A stretch of 64,000 nt of DNA from Planctomycetota bacterium. Lineage in GTDB: Bacteria > Planctomycetota > Phycisphaerae > Phycisphaerales > SM1A02. Shown in pieces: positions 50,337-58,253 of the stretch (the first letter of the stretch is position 1; each line of letters begins with the position of its first letter). A program made the translations under genes and the position numbers. The notes under the pieces are model-generated. The model searched no databases, had not been told where the DNA came from, and was given only the letters and a program-made list of their open reading frames with translations. The stretch is taken from NCBI GenBank assembly GCA_021414025.1, contig JAIOPG010000008.1, positions 1 to 64,000 of the forward strand, in the 5' to 3' direction.

Positions 50337-51260
50337 TCACTCCAGCGTGCGCAACGACAGTCCGTGCTCGGCGAGCCGCTCGTGGATCTCCACCAGGCTG
50401 GTGGCGCCGAAGTTCTTCACGCCCATCAGCTCGGCCTCGGTGCGGGCGGCGAGATCGCCGACCGTCTGAATGCCCAGCAATTGCAGGGCCTTGCGGCTGC
50501 GGATGCCCAGGTTGAGCGCGCCGACCGAGAGGTTCAGCACGCCGTCGGCGACGGTGCCCTTCATCTTCTCCAGGACCTCGCCGCGGACCTTGTCGTAGTG
50601 GCCGCGATCGAGCTGCTGGCCCAGGCGCAGGCCGCGGGCGGTGAGCATCTGCTTGATCTCGACCAGGCTGGTCTCGCCGAAGTTCTTGTAGGAAAGCAGC
50701 TCCGCCTCGCCGATGCGCAGCAGGTCGCCCAGCGTGCGGATGTTCATCTTCTTCAGGCAGTTGCGGGCGCGGATGGAGAGCTCGAATTCGGCGACCGGCA
50801 GGTCGTACATCGCCTCCTCGCGCCCCTTGAGGCGGGCCAGCTCCTCGTCGTAGAGCATGTTCTTGCTGGCCTGCACGTCGCGCAGGAAGAGCCGCGCCCG
50901 CGGATGGTTCGGGTTGGCCTCGATGACCTTCTGGATCAGCTTGCTGGCGCGGGTGAACTGCGCCGCGTCCTCGAGGAGGACGGCGAGATTCAGGAAGGCA
51001 TTGATCGGCGGATTGGGCAGCCGCGTGCACTCCTCGTAGGTGCGCATCGCGTCGTCGTCGTACCCCAGGTGGTCCTGCATGCGGGCGACGTTGAAGAGTG
51101 TGGTGGCCGTCCGGTTGGACTGGGCGGCGCTCTTGTAGGCCTCGAGGGCCTCGAAGAACTTGCCCTCGGTTTCGAAGCTCTTCCCCTGCTTGAGGAAGGC
51201 GGCGGAGGCGGCGGGATCGGAATTGGCGGTGATGAGAGTGTCGAGACCGTTGTTTGGCAT
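50337..51260 (-). CDS. TPR protein with two RNA-polymerase alphaCTD-like domains
   Basis: 307 residues. The N-terminal half (about 15-130) holds TPR-like helical pairs. Two copies of the RNA polymerase alpha C-terminal fold follow. Copy 1 (157-215) reads ELSIRARNCLKKMNIRTLGDLL...KNFGETSLVEIKQML, and copy 2 (247-307) NLGIRSRKALQLLGIQTVGDLA...KNFGATSLVEIHERL. E. coli alpha Arg265 and Asn268, which contact UP-element DNA, match Arg164 and Asn167 in copy 1; in copy 2 Arg254 is kept but Asn becomes Lys257. The catalytic NTD of alpha is absent. It may bind DNA or RNA polymerase partners as a trans-acting factor. The start at 51260 has CTGGAG 4 bases upstream. Confidence 0.85.
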   Translation of the reverse strand: MPNNGLDTLITANSDPAASAAFLKQGKSFETEGKFFEALEAYKSAAQSNRTATTLFNVARMQDHLGYDDDAMRTYEECTRLPNPPINAFLNLAVLLEDAAQFTRASKLIQKVIEANPNHPRARLFLRDVQASKNMLYDEELARLKGREEAMYDLPVAEFELSIRARNCLKKMNIRTLGDLLRIGEAELLSYKNFGETSLVEIKQMLTARGLRLGQQLDRGHYDKVRGEVLEKMKGTVADGVLNLSVGALNLGIRSRKALQLLGIQTVGDLAARTEAELMGVKNFGATSLVEIHERLAEHGLSLRTLE

Positions 51261-51345: not shown

Positions 51346-53001
51346 CTAGATCTCGACCAGGACCATGTCGCCCGCCACCTTGGAAGGCGTCGGGGGAGCA
51401 TGCAATTCGGTGGCGAACTTCTCCAGGCCGCCGACGCGGGCCATTTCGCTGCGGACGGCGGTCGCGTTGTAGGGCCGGCTGGCGGCTCCGGCCCGCGCGG
51501 CTCGGAGATCCAGCGCGATCTGTCCCTCGCCCTTGGCGAAATCCAGGGTCACGATCGCCTTCTCGAATCCCTGCAAGCGCCCCTTGGCGTTCTCGAAGCT
51601 GCCGGCCTTCTCGGTCCAGGTGGCGCCGGGCAGCGTGACCTCGGCACTGGCGCCCAGCGGTCCGGGCAGCGTGTCGATCAGAATCACGTTCACGCCGGCG
51701 AGCGCGGATTGCAGCGCGGGGGTCGCCCACTCGCTGGGATAGTTCCCGGTGACCACGGCCGCGGCGATGCTCCTGGATGCCGCCACTCTCTCGAAGCCCG
51801 CGGCGTCGAGCACCGAACGCCCCTTGGCCAGCGCCTCCAGAACGCGGCGCACGCCGCGCGCGTTGGGGGCCTTCTCGGCGCACATCGTGAAGCCGCCGGG
51901 AAAAGTCTTGTCCTGCCCGAGGACGGGGATCGGCCCGACGGCGAGCTCCGCCTTGGAATCGATCGAGAGCATGAAGGAGGCCAGGAGGTAGGCGTCCTCG
52001 CAGGTGAGCATCGGACTGACCATGAGGCCGAGGCGTCCGCCGCTCTTGGCCGCGCCCTCCAGATGCTCCACAGTCTTTGCCAAGGCGTCGTCCCAGGCCT
52101 GGCCGGCGTCATCCGTGGCGTAAGCCTTGCGCCCCTTGATGGAGGGAATCCGCAAGCGATCCTCGCGGTGCACGAACTTCCAGCCGTAGCGCACCTCGTC
52201 GGTGATCCACCACTTGTTGACCTCTGGGTTGTCGCGCGGCTTCACCCGGTAGATGCGTCCGTTGTTGTGCTCGATGCTGATGTTGTCGCCGCTGGCGGTG
52301 ATGCCGTCGATTCCCGGGGTCTTGGTGAGGAACCAGACGCGCTGCTGGAAGAGGAAGTCCTTGTCGAGGAGGGCCCCGACCGGGCAGATGTCGACCACGT
52401 TGCCGCTGAGTTCGTTGTCCAGCGCCACGCCCGGGAAGACATCGATTTCCTCCACGCTGCCGCGGCCTTCCACCAGCAGCTCGGCCGTGCCGGTGACCTC
52501 GCGCGTGAAGCGGACGCAGCGCGTGCACATGATGCAGCGGTCGCTGTAGAGCAGCACGTGCGGTCCGACATCCTTCTTGGGCCGCTTGTTCTTGGATTCC
52601 TTGAAGCGGCTCTCGCCGCGGCCATACTGGTAGCTGTAGTCCTGCAGATGGCACTCGCCCGCCTGGTCGCACACGGCGCAGTCCACCGGGTGGTTGATCA
52701 GCAGGAACTCCATGACCGCCTTCTGGTTGCCGACCGCCTTGGGCGAGTCGGTGTAGACCACCTGCCCCTCCATCGCGGGGGTCTGGCAGGTCGGGAAAAG
52801 TTTGTTGCCCGCGCGGAGTGCGCCGGTCTTGGGATCGGGGCTCCACACTTCGGCGAGGCAGATGCGGCAGTTGGCCACGATCGAGAGCCCGGGGTGGTAG
52901 CAGTAGTGCGGAATCTCCTCCTGATGGCGGAGCGCCGCCTGCAGAATGGTCTCGCCCTTTTCGAAAGAGCACGTCTTGCCGTTGATGGTGAGCTGAGGCA
53001 T
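51346..53001 (-). CDS. nuoG: NADH-quinone oxidoreductase subunit G-like iron-sulfur protein
   Basis: 551 residues. The ferredoxin-like domain carries C34, C45, C48, C72 for a [2Fe-2S] cluster. A His-Cys3 motif (H104, C108, C111, C117 in HPVDCAVCDQAGEC) and C156, C159, C162, C206 serve two [4Fe-4S] clusters. The remaining roughly 340 residues are a shortened molybdopterin-oxidoreductase-like domain without cofactor motifs, shorter than E. coli NuoG (about 900 residues). No other nuo gene is nearby, so it is either a dispersed complex I subunit or part of another NAD-linked complex. The ATG at 53001 gives the MPQLTINGKTCSFEKGETIL start. Confidence 0.88.
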   Translation of the reverse strand: MPQLTINGKTCSFEKGETILQAALRHQEEIPHYCYHPGLSIVANCRICLAEVWSPDPKTGALRAGNKLFPTCQTPAMEGQVVYTDSPKAVGNQKAVMEFLLINHPVDCAVCDQAGECHLQDYSYQYGRGESRFKESKNKRPKKDVGPHVLLYSDRCIMCTRCVRFTREVTGTAELLVEGRGSVEEIDVFPGVALDNELSGNVVDICPVGALLDKDFLFQQRVWFLTKTPGIDGITASGDNISIEHNNGRIYRVKPRDNPEVNKWWITDEVRYGWKFVHREDRLRIPSIKGRKAYATDDAGQAWDDALAKTVEHLEGAAKSGGRLGLMVSPMLTCEDAYLLASFMLSIDSKAELAVGPIPVLGQDKTFPGGFTMCAEKAPNARGVRRVLEALAKGRSVLDAAGFERVAASRSIAAAVVTGNYPSEWATPALQSALAGVNVILIDTLPGPLGASAEVTLPGATWTEKAGSFENAKGRLQGFEKAIVTLDFAKGEGQIALDLRAARAGAASRPYNATAVRSEMARVGGLEKFATELHAPPTPSKVAGDMVLVEI

Positions 53002-53032
53002 GTGTGGAATGGCTCGGAATTCTGGAAGCGGG

Positions 53033-53038
53033 AGTCTA
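53033..53038 (-). promoter_or_regulatory. -10-like TAGACT upstream of nuoG
   Basis: Minus-strand TAGACT lies 31 bases before the nuoG ATG. It abuts the T-run of the preceding terminator. No -35 of good quality. Confidence 0.35.
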
Positions 53039-53042
53039 GTCA

Positions 53043-53083
53043 ACAAAAATAAACGCGTCCGCGGCTTTGGGCCACGGACGCGT
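53043..53083 (-). terminator. Intrinsic terminator, minus strand, before nuoG
   Basis: Perfect 9-base arms ACGCGTCCG (53053-53061) and CGGACGCGT (53075-53083). Read on the minus strand they are followed by TTATTTTTGTTG. It stops transcription coming from the ketosynthase/membrane-protein unit. Confidence 0.8.
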
Positions 53084-53378: not shown

Positions 53379-54005
53379 TCAATTCCTGGTGGGAGAGGTC
53401 TCAAGTTGCAGGCGGATCTCGCCGGGCAGCACCTCGATGTCCCTCACCTTGACGCGCCGCCCGTCGGCCAGGCGGAACTCCGAGTCGCGCAGCGAATCAA
53501 AGAGATCGGTGGGCCGAAAGGTCGAGACCAGAAAGGCCGGAATCGGCAGCCGTCCGATGGCCGCCGAAGCGGTTTCCAGGTTCACCTTGCCCCCGGCGGA
53601 ATCGACGTGCATCTTCGGCGCGATGGCGACGCTGCCCACGCCCCAGGAATTCTCCGCGGCAATCTCCATGTGGTCATCGAGACAGCGCACCTGAACCTTG
53701 CCCACTTTTTTCGCCAGGTCGGGATGTTCAAACTCGAGCCATTTCGGCAGGCGCGAGGCCAGCCATTCGTTCATGTCGTTCTCCGAAATGCGGATCGCCC
53801 AGACCCGATCCTCTCCGCGCACCTTGGTGAACTGCGCCGCGAGGGCCTGCTCGAAAAACGCCGAGCGTTGCTCCATGGCGGCGTCGGGAACCAGCGCCGC
53901 CCGGAGCCAGCCGGGCGGAAGGGTCGAGAGCCAATAGAGGATCGCCCCGATCATCGCCATCGCCCCGGCGCAGATCATGACCGGCAGCCGTCGACGCTTC
54001 TTCAT
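53379..54005 (-). CDS. Membrane-anchored protein of unknown function
   Basis: 208 residues with one N-terminal membrane span (about 8-27, PVMICAGAMAMIGAILYWLS) and an extracytoplasmic domain. The domain contains RISENDMNEWLASRLPKWL, and alternating strands GKVQVRCLDDHMEIAAENSWGVGSVAIAPKMHVD, reminiscent of proteins that bind lipids. It follows the ketosynthase gene by 34 bases, so it is likely part of that unit and might handle its product. Family not recognised. Confidence 0.65.
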   Translation of the reverse strand: MKKRRRLPVMICAGAMAMIGAILYWLSTLPPGWLRAALVPDAAMEQRSAFFEQALAAQFTKVRGEDRVWAIRISENDMNEWLASRLPKWLEFEHPDLAKKVGKVQVRCLDDHMEIAAENSWGVGSVAIAPKMHVDSAGGKVNLETASAAIGRLPIPAFLVSTFRPTDLFDSLRDSEFRLADGRRVKVRDIEVLPGEIRLQLETSPTRN

Positions 54006-54039: not shown

Positions 54040-55365
54040 TCACGGCGCGCCGTATCGGGTGACCACGAGCGTGTCGTTCTGCCCGCCGAAGCCGAAGGAA
54101 TTGCTGATGCAGGTGTCGACGAGGCAGGGACGGGCGGTGTTGGGGACGTAGTCCAGGTCGAGGGCGGGATCCGCGTCGTGCAGATTGCGCGTCGGCGGCA
54201 GCATGCGCCGCTGAATCGCCAGGATGCAGGTCATGAACTCCACCGCCCCCGCCGCCGCGATGAGATGCCCCATCATGCTTTTGATGCTGCTCATGGGAAT
54301 CTTGCGGGCGAGCTCGCCGAAGACCACCTTGACCGCGCGGGTTTCGATCGAATCGTTCTCCTTCGTGCCCGTGCCGTGGGCGCTGATGTAATGAATCAGC
54401 GGCCGGCCATCCGCACCGATGGCGGCGGGGTTGATGCCCGCTTGCTTCAACGCCAGATTGATGGCGGCGGCGGCGCCTCGCCCCTCGGGCTGGATGTCGG
54501 TGATGCGAAACGCGTCGGCGCTGGAGCCGTAGCCGATCACCTCGGCCAGCGGTGTCGCTCCGCGGGCCAGGGCGTGTTCGAGCTTTTCAAGAATCACCAT
54601 GCCGCTGCCTTCGCCCATGACGAACCCGTCGCGGCTGAAGCAGAAGGGTCGGCTCGCCATGGTGGGATCGCCCTTGAATGTGCTCAGCGCCGTCAAGCGG
54701 TTGAAACCCATGACGCCCAGCGGATGGATCATGGTGTGCGTGCCGCCGGACATCATGATGTCCGCGTCGCCGTGGCGAATCATGCTGAAGGCTTCGCCGA
54801 TGGCCTGCGTGCTGGCGGCGCAGGCGGTGAGGCAGTTCGACGCCGGGCCGCGAATGCCGAACTCGCGGGCCAGATGGGCCAGCGGCATGTTGGCCTCCTG
54901 CTCGATCTCGCGCAGACGGTCGAGGCGCTGCAATCCCGCCTTCGCCCAGCGCACACCATCGACTTTCTGCTTGGCGGCGTCCCACGCGGCGAGCATCGTG
55001 CCGGCGTAGTTGTCAAAATCAAGCACGCCTTCTCCGGCTCCCAGGTAGAGCCCGATGCGACGGGGATCCTTCGGAGGCTCGCGGTCAAAACCCGCCTGGT
55101 GCCAGGCCTGGCGCGCCGCGCCAAGGGCGAATTGCGAATTCAATCCGGCGGTGGCGTGCACCTTGGGATCAAGGACGAATTTGCGATAGTCATAGTCCGG
55201 CTTCACTTCCGCGGCGAAGGTCGTGGGGAAAGTCTCCGCCTTGAAATGCGTGATCGGCGCCATGCCGCTCTCCGACTTCATCAGCCGGTTCCAGACCGTG
55301 TCGACCGAGTGGCCGAGGCTGGTCACCCATCCCATGCCGGTCACCACCACGCGCGTGCCGCTCAT
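54040..55365 (-). CDS. Beta-ketoacyl synthase (FabF-like, KS-alpha)
   Basis: 441 residues of the thiolase-fold condensing enzyme family. The full catalytic set is present: Cys182 in LTACAAST, His330 in AHGTGTKEND and Lys362/His367 in IKSMMGH. The length and motifs suit FabF or the KS-alpha subunit of type II polyketide-like systems. GGAGGATCTC precedes the ATG at 55365, which overlaps the stop of the upstream paralogue (ATGA). No ACP, ketoreductase or malonyl transferase gene adjoins. The tandem with a degenerate partner suggests a heterodimer rather than housekeeping FabF. Confidence 0.88.
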   Translation of the reverse strand: MSGTRVVVTGMGWVTSLGHSVDTVWNRLMKSESGMAPITHFKAETFPTTFAAEVKPDYDYRKFVLDPKVHATAGLNSQFALGAARQAWHQAGFDREPPKDPRRIGLYLGAGEGVLDFDNYAGTMLAAWDAAKQKVDGVRWAKAGLQRLDRLREIEQEANMPLAHLAREFGIRGPASNCLTACAASTQAIGEAFSMIRHGDADIMMSGGTHTMIHPLGVMGFNRLTALSTFKGDPTMASRPFCFSRDGFVMGEGSGMVILEKLEHALARGATPLAEVIGYGSSADAFRITDIQPEGRGAAAAINLALKQAGINPAAIGADGRPLIHYISAHGTGTKENDSIETRAVKVVFGELARKIPMSSIKSMMGHLIAAAGAVEFMTCILAIQRRMLPPTRNLHDADPALDLDYVPNTARPCLVDTCISNSFGFGGQNDTLVVTRYGAP

Positions 55366-56699
55366 GAGATCCTCCGTAGAACGACGGCGGCATTCTGTCC
55401 GCCCAAACTTGACGTGGTCACGACGATGGTCTTCAGTTTCGCATCGCGGGCGGCAATGGAGCCGGCGTCGACGCCCCCCTGCCTGCCGCCGTTAATCCGC
55501 GCCGGCAGCTTCTGCGACCGCAGGCACATCACCGCCACGCTGGCGGCGAGCGCGCCGAATCCCGCCCCGCAATTGCCCGTCGCCGGGGAGATGGTGACCA
55601 GGGGAATCTTCGCCAGGCTCGCGCCGAAGGCACGCGTCAAGCCGGCGGCCTCGCCCGCGTCGATGCCGGGCACGCCGCAACCAAAGGGAACGATGGCGTC
55701 GATCTCGCCCGGTTTCACGCCGGCCTCGTCCATCGCGGCCTCGATGGCCTGCGCAATGCCGGCGCCATCCGCCTCGGCGACGACTCCGATGGTGTCCTCG
55801 CACCAGCTCTGGCTCGCGCCGAAGCCGGCCATTTCCACCTCGATCTTGGCTCCGCGGGCGCGGGCGCTTTCAAGCTCCTCCAGCACCAGGATGCCGCCGC
55901 CCTCGCCGGCGATGCCGCCCGTGGCGTCGGCATCGAAGGGTCGGACGACCTTCGAGGGGTCGTCGTTGAGTGACGCCGTCGCCAGGCGCCCGGCGTAAAA
56001 CTGGCGCAGCACGCCCATCATGTTCACCTTGCTTTCCGCGCCGCCGGAAAGGCAGCAGATGGCGGAGTCGCGGCCGATCACGCGCATGCTCTCGCCGAGG
56101 GAGAGCAGCGAGCTCGCCTCGCCGCAGGTGATCGTGTTGGAGGGGCCCTGGCAATCATGAATGATGGAGACATGGCTCGCCAGCATGTTGGGCAGATATT
56201 TCAGCATCCACAGCGGCGTGATGTTCTGGATGCCGCTCTCGCCCCACTTCACGATGTCGATCTCGCCATCGGCGGTCTGGCTGGTGGCCAGGGCCATGGT
56301 CAATTCGTTTTCCTCGGCGGCGATCAAACCGGCACCGACATGGCAGCCCATCCGATCCGGCGGCAGCGTGACCTTGCCGTCGGCGGGCTCATGCGACTTG
56401 GTGATCAATCCCGCGTCCTTGACCGCTTCAAAGGCGGCCGCCACCGCGAGCTCGATGTCCCGCGCCATCACCTTGGTGGCCTTGCGGTGGCCCTTGGGCA
56501 CGTATTGCTTGATGTCCATCTGCTCTGCCGGCAGCTGCGCCACGAAGGGGCAGCAGAACCCGCTCATGTCGAAGGTGTCGCACAATCGCGCCCCGGAACG
56601 CCCTTCCATCAGGGCTTTCCAGAGTGATTCCATCCCCAGCCCGACCGCGGATGCGGTCCCGATTCCGGTGATGACGACTCGGCGATCCTTGCGGGACAT
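55362..56699 (-). CDS. Degenerate ketosynthase (KS-beta / chain-length-factor-like)
   Basis: 445 residues, thiolase fold, colinear with the downstream KS-alpha. It opens RRVVITGIGTASAVG and has the late GEGGGILVLEELESARARGA. The active-site cysteine position is occupied by Glu194 (GPSNTITCGEASS; a Cys lies two residues earlier). The HGTGT histidine is replaced by Phe339 (PFGCG), and the KSxxGH lysine and histidine by Ser371 and Asn376 (SPATGN). All three catalytic positions are thus changed, as in chain-length factors of type II polyketide systems. The ATG at 56699 is 9 bases after TACATT. Confidence 0.8.
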   Translation of the reverse strand: MSRKDRRVVITGIGTASAVGLGMESLWKALMEGRSGARLCDTFDMSGFCCPFVAQLPAEQMDIKQYVPKGHRKATKVMARDIELAVAAAFEAVKDAGLITKSHEPADGKVTLPPDRMGCHVGAGLIAAEENELTMALATSQTADGEIDIVKWGESGIQNITPLWMLKYLPNMLASHVSIIHDCQGPSNTITCGEASSLLSLGESMRVIGRDSAICCLSGGAESKVNMMGVLRQFYAGRLATASLNDDPSKVVRPFDADATGGIAGEGGGILVLEELESARARGAKIEVEMAGFGASQSWCEDTIGVVAEADGAGIAQAIEAAMDEAGVKPGEIDAIVPFGCGVPGIDAGEAAGLTRAFGASLAKIPLVTISPATGNCGAGFGALAASVAVMCLRSQKLPARINGGRQGGVDAGSIAARDAKLKTIVVTTSSLGGQNAAVVLRRIS

Positions 56700-56766: not shown

Positions 56767-58140
56767 TCAGCCGCCGAGGTGCTTCGCCACCAGCATGGCC
56801 ATCTCCAGCGACTGCTCGTAGTTGAGGCGCGGATCCACTCGGCTGCGGTAGGCGCCGGAGAGCTGTCCATCCTCAAGGCCGCGCGCACCGCCGGTGCACT
56901 CGGTCACGTTCTCGCCGGTGAGCTCGAAGTGCACGCCGCCCAGCCGGCTCGATTGCTTCTTGTGGATCTCGAAAGCCTGCTCGATCTCCGCGAGGATGTG
57001 GGCGAACTTGCGGGTCTTCACCTTGGTGCCCGCCTGCGGCCCGCCGGTCAGCGCCACGCTTTGCGTGTTGCCGTGCATGGGATCGCAGACCCAGAGCACG
57101 CGCGACTTGCTCTTGGCGACGGCATCGATCAGCGGCGGCAGGCTCTTGGCGATCTCGTGCGTGCCGAAGCGATGGATCAGCGTCAGGCGCCCCGGCTCGT
57201 TGGTCGGATTCAGCACGCGGATGATCTCCAGCAGCGTGGCTTCCTTGGTGCCCGGGCCCACCTTCACGGCGACGGGATTCTGGATGCCGCGGAAAAACTC
57301 GATGTGCGCGTTGCCCGGTTCCGCGGTGCGGTATCCGATCCAGGGCATGTGCGTCGAGAGGTCCCACCACCCCGCTCGATGCGGCACGGTGCGGGTCTGG
57401 GCCTGCTCGTAGGCCAGCACCAGTCCCTCATGGCTGGTGAAGAAATCCGTGCGGCGCATCTCGTGCACCGGGGCGCCGGCCAGCGTCTCCATGAAGCGCA
57501 GGCTCTGGCCGATCTCGCGGGTGATCTTCTGGTAGTCGTCACGCAGCGGGCTGTGTTGAACAAAATCCAGATCCCAATACTCCGGATGGTGCAGATCGGC
57601 GAAGCCGCCATCCACCAGCGAACGGATGAAGTTCAGCGTGAGGGCCGATCGGCTGTAGGCCTCGATCAGCCGCTGCGGATCGGGGGCGCGAGTCTTCTCG
57701 TGGAACTCCAGGCCATTGACCAGGTCGCCGCGGTAGGAATCCAGCTTGACGTCGCCGCGGGTCTCGAACTCATCGCTGCGCGGCTTGGCGTACTGCCCGG
57801 CGATGCGCCCGACGCGGATCACCGGCAGGCTGCCGCCGTGGGTCAGCACCAGGCTCATCTGCAGCAGAATCTTCAGCTTGGCGGCGATGACGGAGCTGCG
57901 GCACTCGTCGAACATCTCGGCGCAGTCGCCGCCTTGAAGCAGGAATCGACGGCCTTCAGCGGCATCCGCCAGCTGCGACTTCAGCGACTCGATCTCCCAG
58001 CTCGTGACCAGCGGCGGCAACTGGGAGAGCTCCGTCAGGGCGTGGTCCAGCACGGCCGGATCGGGATAGCGCGGCTGCTGCAGCACGGGGAAACGCTTCC
58101 AACTGTCGGGGGTCCATGAAGTGTTGTGGGAAGCGGACAT
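56767..58140 (-). CDS. 3-deoxy-7-phosphoheptulonate (DAHP) synthase, class II
   Basis: 457 residues. It is the first enzyme of the shikimate pathway, of the plant/actinobacterial class II type. It has RRFLLQGGDCAEMFDEC, SLPVIRVGRIAGQYAKPRS, LNFIRSLVDGGFADLHHPEYWDL, GPGTKEATLLEIIRVLNP, WVCDPMHGNT and HFELTGENVTECTGGARGL, and the C-terminal DPRLNYEQSLEMAMLVAKHL. The ATG at 58140 yields the usual tryptophan-rich SWTPDSWKRFPVLQQP start. It begins 29 bases after the tRNA-Leu 3' end with no promoter between, so the two are probably one transcript. Confidence 0.95.
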   Translation of the reverse strand: MSASHNTSWTPDSWKRFPVLQQPRYPDPAVLDHALTELSQLPPLVTSWEIESLKSQLADAAEGRRFLLQGGDCAEMFDECRSSVIAAKLKILLQMSLVLTHGGSLPVIRVGRIAGQYAKPRSDEFETRGDVKLDSYRGDLVNGLEFHEKTRAPDPQRLIEAYSRSALTLNFIRSLVDGGFADLHHPEYWDLDFVQHSPLRDDYQKITREIGQSLRFMETLAGAPVHEMRRTDFFTSHEGLVLAYEQAQTRTVPHRAGWWDLSTHMPWIGYRTAEPGNAHIEFFRGIQNPVAVKVGPGTKEATLLEIIRVLNPTNEPGRLTLIHRFGTHEIAKSLPPLIDAVAKSKSRVLWVCDPMHGNTQSVALTGGPQAGTKVKTRKFAHILAEIEQAFEIHKKQSSRLGGVHFELTGENVTECTGGARGLEDGQLSGAYRSRVDPRLNYEQSLEMAMLVAKHLGG

Positions 58141-58169
58141 GGTTTCTCTTTCGGCGCCGGTCAATCAAG

Positions 58170-58253
<84 letters not shown>

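Follow-up and report, generated by a model that had tools for sequence, protein, structure and literature searches.

Planctomycete pairs of a ketosynthase and a chain-length factor (KS-CLF) and FabF-type enzymes without the catalytic cysteine are already published. A 2023 KS-CLF catalogue counts Planctomycetes among 14 phyla (PMC10132072). Rattray et al. 2009 describe two Rhodopirellula baltica FabF paralogues with Asp (RB3714) and Glu (RB4527) in place of Cys and give Val for the nucleophile position of Kuste3606 (PMC2649909), and the anammox cluster kuste3603-3608 contains an acyl carrier protein (ACP), FabZ, FabF, and an odd FabF (PMC4790861). Here, we analyzed a Cys-less ketosynthase, KSbeta, and an intact one, KSalpha, encoded side by side in a 64,000-nucleotide stretch of DNA (the window; contig C8:1-64000) from a 2.8-Mb, 97.5% complete planctomycete genome. 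The explanation that we favor, and consider fairly probable, is that the pair forms a KS-CLF-like heterodimer within a dedicated type II acyl synthase whose product is most likely an envelope lipid chain.

The KSbeta-KSalpha pair

A sequence-only reading of this DNA had described two overlapping thiolase-fold genes, and we recovered the same coordinates and overlap, with both genes on the minus strand (Table 1). The KSbeta stop and the KSalpha start share 4 nt (ATGA), and both proteins matched PF00109 and PF02801 well above the cut-off. The catalytic residues assigned by that reading were confirmed in alignment columns. KSalpha has the set Cys182, His330, Lys362, and His367, and KSbeta carries Glu194 for the nucleophile and Phe339, Ser371, and Asn376 for His, Lys, and His.

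Across homologues, the C-H-K-H set was complete in 49 of 49 KSalpha rows, and the KSbeta nucleophile column held Glu in 56 rows and Gln in 1 row of 57, counts that include some genes twice because they were fetched via overlapping loci. This conservation on both sides goes far beyond what chance would give and indicates that the loss of Cys is ancient and not local decay. Local pseudogenization of KSbeta was rejected, as the Cys loss is conserved order-wide. Among the 37 KSbeta rows of the tree described below, the nucleophile position was E in 26, D in 8, and Q, N, and S in 1 each. The other KSbeta columns are relaxed: the H330 column held F in 30/57 and H in 6/57, the K362 column K in 14/57, and the H367 column N in 34/57 and H in 2/57. 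The nearby Cys192 was rejected as an alternative nucleophile, its column being Cys in 13 of the 17 KSbeta tree rows from the order and in 4 of the 20 from elsewhere. The surroundings of LKYLPNM form a KSbeta-specific block, invariant in sets of 30 and of 47 rows. In KSalpha, the equivalent of FabF position 108 is Glu in 25/25 rows; the FabF residue, Ile108, is presumably the acyl-pocket gate, and this Glu is an oddity that any mechanism must explain.

KSbeta was present in 57 of 61 genomes, our own included (E <= 2.4e-68), and the four genomes without it are incomplete assemblies, 72-88% complete (G012, G023, G025, and G029). In comparisons with the four closest relatives its dN/dS was 0.07-0.13, and with the fifth it was 0.33, at a dS close to saturation; in the same estimate, one KSalpha pair yielded no dS. 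KSbeta thus looks to be under purifying selection.

The two genes travel together. The named relatives are planctomycete metagenome-assembled genomes (MAGs) labeled mostly Phycisphaerales or Planctomycetota, and we assign the class to Phycisphaerae. We scanned 97 loci and found KSbeta and KSalpha on the same strand and in the same order in 71 of the 72 loci in which both were recognized. The 4-nt overlap recurred in 33/73 named loci, a gap of 376-908 nt separated the genes in 18/73, and one Planctomycetota MAG (L103) encodes a natural KSbeta-KSalpha fusion in a single frame. On this gene order, overlap, and fusion, KSalpha and KSbeta are predicted to form a heterodimer.

Five relatives (L040, L041, L042, L051, and L052) have unrelated genes between KSbeta and KSalpha, which belong to the 23S_rRNA_IVP, PDDEXK_3, and RlaP families; as genes of 23S rRNA-intervening, PDDEXK_3, and RlaP identity, they were rejected as pathway members. 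An insert of ~7 kb in L039 was likewise rejected as a cluster, with three of its five scanned genes being MnmE/TrmE-, YidC-, and MauE-like and two having no match.

The KSbeta structural model (mean pLDDT, a per-residue confidence, 92.2) showed a complete two-domain thiolase/FabF fold. Residues 5-445 aligned with whole FabF folds at Z about 60, and the best matches were FabFs, closely followed by the actinorhodin (act) and ishigamide ketosynthases. Because the model is a complete FabF fold, we excluded the half-size ApeC type for KSbeta. The suggestion of an aryl-polyene-type chain-length factor was therefore not upheld, the ApeC-type factor being a single thiolase domain (PMC8358021).

We placed both proteins in a tree of 85 rows (LG+C20+F+G4). 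The 37 KSbeta rows formed one side of a branch supported at 99/100, and the 25 KSalpha rows formed one clade (100/97). The FabF of our genome grouped with Escherichia coli FabF (98/84), and three FabF rows (our genome, another planctomycete, and E. coli) made up a clade of their own (100/97), with both ketosynthase clades elsewhere. Joint clustering with housekeeping FabF, which would have spoken against a chain-length-factor-like pair, was thus not seen, and the tree, the conserved gene order, the overlap, and the fusion all bear out the proposal of such a pair set apart from FabF.

These data leave little room for the view that the two proteins are redundant FabF paralogues, one of them decaying. 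General FabF models are the best matches of both, and KSalpha passes PRK07314, but the separate and well supported clades, the low dN/dS of KSbeta, and its invariant LKYLPNM-region block make this explanation very improbable.

The tree also bears on the origin of the pair. In family f19 (L180-L182), both operon ketosynthases keep C-H-K-H, and one was placed beside KSbeta (91/85, below the threshold of 95) and the other beside KSalpha (100/97). Given these placements, the simple reading is that duplication preceded cysteine loss, and f19 may preserve the ancestral state that preceded this loss. An approximately unbiased (AU) test neither established nor rejected common ancestry of KSbeta with an actinobacterial CLF (p = 0.408), which was a single CLF on a long branch.

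Probable carrier protein and dehydratase partners

The sequence-only reading had stated that no ACP or reductase adjoins the pair. This holds in the window and fails elsewhere: an ACP with FabZ genes lies on contig C6 of the same genome, and other planctomycetes join such genes and the ketosynthases in one operon. Family searches of our genome located ACPs on C1 (beside FabF), C6, and C7, plus a weak C7 match, and FabA/FabZ-type domains at five places. On C6, the ACP is flanked by two dehydratase genes, FabZ1 and FabZ2 (Table 1), and beyond FabZ2 come genes of coaD-like and metallo-beta-lactamase type and then panB. No FabG was found in this operon among the genes scanned.

The single operon elsewhere reads FabZ1-(FabG)-ACP-FabZ2-KSbeta-KSalpha. 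Among 13 KSbeta loci from other families within and outside the class (L172-L184), FabZ1 and the ACP adjoin the pair in 12. In L178 only FabZ2 adjoins it, in L172 the contig ends within KSalpha, the FabZ2 matches of L180-L182 are weak (17-20 bits), and L183 has FabG inside the operon. Outside the class, FabZ1, ACP, FabZ2, and KSalpha occur together in 8 of 12 further loci with an ACP above 100 bits (L251-L259 and L261-L263; families f26, f54, f57, f61, and f63, probably mainly Planctomycetia). Of the remaining four, L258 and L261 showed no KSalpha, L263 runs into a contig end, and the cluster in L259 is larger and of a different kind. A FabG-type gene lies between FabZ1 and ACP in all four loci scanned for it (L251, L253, L257, and L262), and in L254 and L256 there is no space for such a gene.

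The L259 cluster (family f61) combines several FabZ-type genes and an ACP of the special family (104 bits) with four ketosynthases, of which two carry Phe or Ala in place of Cys.

In our best reading, the synthase of this order is split over two loci, FabZ1-ACP-FabZ2 on C6 and KSbeta-KSalpha in the window. Other planctomycetes have this gene set too, either intact or split, so that it is probably a dedicated factory for a fatty or polyene chain.

A search of the relatives found the special ACP in 55 of 61 genomes, our own included. FabZ1 adjoins it in 29/30 loci read and FabZ2 in 29/30, both losses falling at contig ends; 29 of these loci come from the window's own family and one from the order. 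With weak rows left out, the residues that are catalytic in FabZ were kept in nearly all rows, His in 40/40 and Glu in 38/40 for FabZ1, and His in 39/40 and Glu in 40/40 for FabZ2. The ACP is unusual in its length of ~130 aa: its profile aligned with ordinary ACPs to position 64 and again from ~110, leaving an insert of ~45 positions that follows helix II. The motif ESIDxLDIxF was present in 19/19 ACP rows. General ACP models matched, and two of the five ACPs listed just pass the PRK00982.1-4 cut-off of 66 (L177 with 69.6 and L173 with 66.5 bits).

KSbeta and the special ACP also co-occur across the phylum. In 244 genomes, taking the same draw for both searches, KSbeta (E <= 1e-50) was found in 83, the ACP (> 100 bits) in 84, and both in 81. 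We dropped as weak the ACP matches of G073, G118, and G141 (62-64 bits) and the second match of G205 (69 bits). KSbeta occurs without the ACP in G042 and G237. The ACP occurs without a KSbeta passing the cut in G208, G245, and G247, of which G208 and G247 have KSbeta-like matches at 1e-45 and 1e-47. A Fisher p calculated from these counts takes no account of relatedness among the genomes, and we give it no weight.

These results supply likely partners, an ACP and two dehydratases, for an orphan-looking KS-CLF pair, so that the system should be reconstitutable from five named genes. Among the papers listed, in which subscription journals are mostly missing and a negative is therefore weak, we found no description of the FabZ-ACP-FabZ-KSbeta-KSalpha module, its ACP family, or the split arrangement, nor of a relative keeping both cysteines.

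Product and competing explanations

In the mechanism that we propose, KSalpha would catalyze the Claisen condensation. KSbeta would have no catalytic role but, in the manner of chain-length factors, would shape the acyl pocket and serve to dock the carrier protein. Besides the pair, the synthase would comprise the unusual ACP and two FabZ-type dehydratases as dedicated components, joined in some clades by a dedicated FabG, with the parts from C6 and the window assembled in trans in this order and reductases borrowed from the housekeeping fatty acid synthase. The product would be an acyl chain, long or very long, destined for an envelope lipid, which the downstream membrane protein may handle outside the cytoplasm. 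Our genome contains an lpxC-fabZ fusion and lpxA; these genes and the near-universality of KSbeta in the order count for a lipid product.

Several observations weigh against this proposal. The operon neighbors scanned included neither an acyltransferase nor a lipid-A gene; a hydrolase follows KSalpha in L184 and L251, and L184 also has a GH3-type gene. A polyene would likewise agree with an operon that has two dehydratases and lacks an enoyl reductase. Six of the 61 relatives gave no ACP match. KSbeta is unlinked in some lineages, the exceptions to adjacency being the g23 genomes and family f26: three g23 genomes have KSbeta but no KSalpha in the fetched stretch (L043, L045, and L053), one of them, G042, also being without an ACP match, and in f26 KSbeta stands alone in 7/7 loci read (L185-L191).

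The enzyme set itself raises the question of a highly reducing type II polyketide synthase (PKS) making a conjugated polyene of the aryl-polyene or ishigamide type. Such synthases have the same genes as the planctomycete operons with a FabG, namely a KS, a CLF, an ACP, a ketoreductase (KR), and two dehydratases (DHs), and with two dehydratases, a ketoreductase, and no enoyl reductase the double bonds would stay in each cycle. In Streptomyces plasmid clusters of the order ACP-KR-DH-KS-DH-KS, the ACP reaches 76-82 bits against the planctomycete ACP profile, and the first ketosynthase (KS1) falls on the KSalpha side of the tree with weak support (86/70); a grouping of KSbeta with their second ketosynthase (KS2) was, however, rejected (AU p 0.003). 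The upstream 3-deoxy-D-arabino-heptulosonate 7-phosphate (DAHP) synthase gene and a chorismate-binding/aminotransferase gene adjoining one operon (L173) could hint at an aromatic starter, but no starter ligase or glycosyltransferase was present among the 20 neighbors scanned at the pair and the C6 operon, where the one transporter gene, for an oligopeptide-type ABC ATPase, lies 3.4 kb beyond FabZ2. Unlike most secondary metabolite genes, KSbeta is near-universal in the order, and an aryl-polyene-like cluster exists separately on C7 of our genome. We take the polyene seriously as the main rival but think it unlikely.

This C7 cluster (L006 and L169; Table 1) resembles aryl-polyene and xanthomonadin clusters. 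It contains an acyltransferase, an 811-aa KS gene with a second KS-like stretch, a class III aminotransferase, a FabZ/ApeI-like dehydratase, an FkbO/Hyg5-like chorismatase (below the NCBIfam cut-off), and an AMP-ligase fused to a methyltransferase.

A more specific version of the envelope lipid proposal makes the system a planctomycete counterpart, convergent or distantly homologous, of the rhizobial acpXL-fabZXL-fabF2XL-fabF1XL genes, which serve a C26-C34 very-long-chain fatty acid (VLCFA) of lipid A. The ACP, FabZ, and two KS genes are of the same types and order as those described for Rhizobiaceae, and the Agrobacterium locus is likewise split into two transcription units (PMC11901934, PMC5613085). 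The planctomycete ACP has its insert after helix II. This likeness is to locus descriptions and not to rhizobial sequences, and the operons scanned contain no lpxXL-like acyltransferase. The PDB "specialized acyl carrier protein" came only at rank 39 for the planctomycete ACP profile. PRK06508, which we take to be AcpXL, matched in 19/19 ACP rows, yet at 24-54 bits against a cut-off of 83 among the matches listed. We regard a rhizobial-type system as unlikely, though conceivable.

More speculative, and in our view doubtful, is a scenario in which a type II acyl synthase specific to the lineage, with a KS-CLF heterodimer at its core, is carried by many planctomycetes and makes their unusual long acyl envelope chains, its CLF having arisen inside the lineage from a working ketosynthase with f19 still ancestral, and in which anammox bacteria recruited a version for ladderane lipids.

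The system is also a candidate for making the long-chain hydroxy acids that have been reported from the lipid A of planctomycetes. The distribution of the pair points to KS-CLF-type enzymes as possible standard equipment, in at least one entire bacterial order, and not a secondary-metabolite curiosity. Relatives whose two ketosynthases are both intact provide a natural test case for the evolution of a chain-length factor from a working enzyme.

Neighboring genes and comparison with known systems

On the minus strand, the order of genes is tRNA, class II DAHP synthase, KSbeta, KSalpha, a membrane-anchored protein, a NuoG-like protein, and others. The DAHP synthase is the immediate co-directional upstream neighbor in 30 of the 71 loci (window and named loci) that have an upstream neighbor, and is probably merely a transcription neighbor.

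As the sequence-only reading had noted, a membrane-anchored protein follows the pair. It gave no Pfam match; its homologue lies directly 3' of KSalpha in 30/75 loci, and the family has 35 members in the 97 loci scanned. In its model (pLDDT 90.6), the six best VIA-align rows were CETP, BPI, LBP, P47, YceB, and BPI, at Z 5.0-6.5, with the remaining rows at Z 4.3 and lower. P47 and YceB are presumably TULIP-type folds, so that the best structural matches would be TULIP-type (BPI/CETP) lipid-binding folds, a weak fold match with Z < 8 and a best Foldseek E of 0.004. A lipid-handling role is only a suggestion from this model.

Table 1. Locations of the genes and clusters discussed. Positions without a contig or locus prefix refer to the window.
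Feature	Location	Strand	Description	Family match
KSbeta	55362..56699	(-)	445 aa, ATG at 56699; Cys-less FabF-like ketosynthase	PF00109/PF02801
KSalpha	54040..55365	(-)	441 aa; intact condensing enzyme; start inside KSbeta stop	PF00109/PF02801
FabZ1-ACP-FabZ2	G000:C6:237123-238691		Own genome, contig C6
Membrane-anchored protein	53379..54005	(-)	208 aa; one N-terminal hydrophobic helix, then alpha/beta domain
Class II DAHP synthase	56767..58164	(-)	Upstream of KSbeta	TIGR01358, above cut-off
tRNA gene	58170..58253	(-)	Upstream of DAHP synthase	Rfam RF00005, 58.3 bits
NuoG-like protein	51346-53046	(-)	566 aa; molybdopterin domain matched over a short stretch only	Below NuoG cut-off
Repeat protein	50337-51260	(-)	Matches in two stretches	TPR repeats; RNA polymerase alpha C-terminal domain
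KSbeta-KSalpha fusion	L103:8995-11700		902 aa; Planctomycetota MAG
Aryl-polyene/xanthomonadin-like cluster	G000:C7:171000-184000		Own genome, contig C7

Compared with the KS-CLF of type II PKSs (e.g. actinorhodin KS/CLF, PDB 1tqy, and actinobacterial relatives), the planctomycete system likewise has coupled genes for an intact and a Cys-less ketosynthase, a cognate ACP, and a full-length fold. It differs in having no cyclase or aromatase among the neighbors scanned and in a KSbeta that is unlinked in some members. The act CLF carries Gln at the nucleophile position, whereas the planctomycete KSbeta has Glu or Asp. The aryl polyene ApeO-ApeC and ishigamide Iga11-Iga12 systems similarly combine a KS-CLF with DHs and an ACP, and also with a KR, which the planctomycete operons have in some clades but not on C6; in contrast to ApeC, KSbeta has both thiolase domains, and the genes scanned around the pair and the C6 operon included none for aryl activation.

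The remaining comparisons are with published descriptions. The rhizobial VLCFA locus also has two ketosynthases, a special ACP, and this order and these types of genes, whereas the planctomycete set has an extra FabZ, a FabG in some clades, and no lpxXL in the operons seen. Unlike the anammox cluster, the planctomycete loci had no radical-SAM or desaturase gene among the neighbors scanned. The R. baltica paralogues, finally, have Asp and Glu at the nucleophile position, as KSbeta does.

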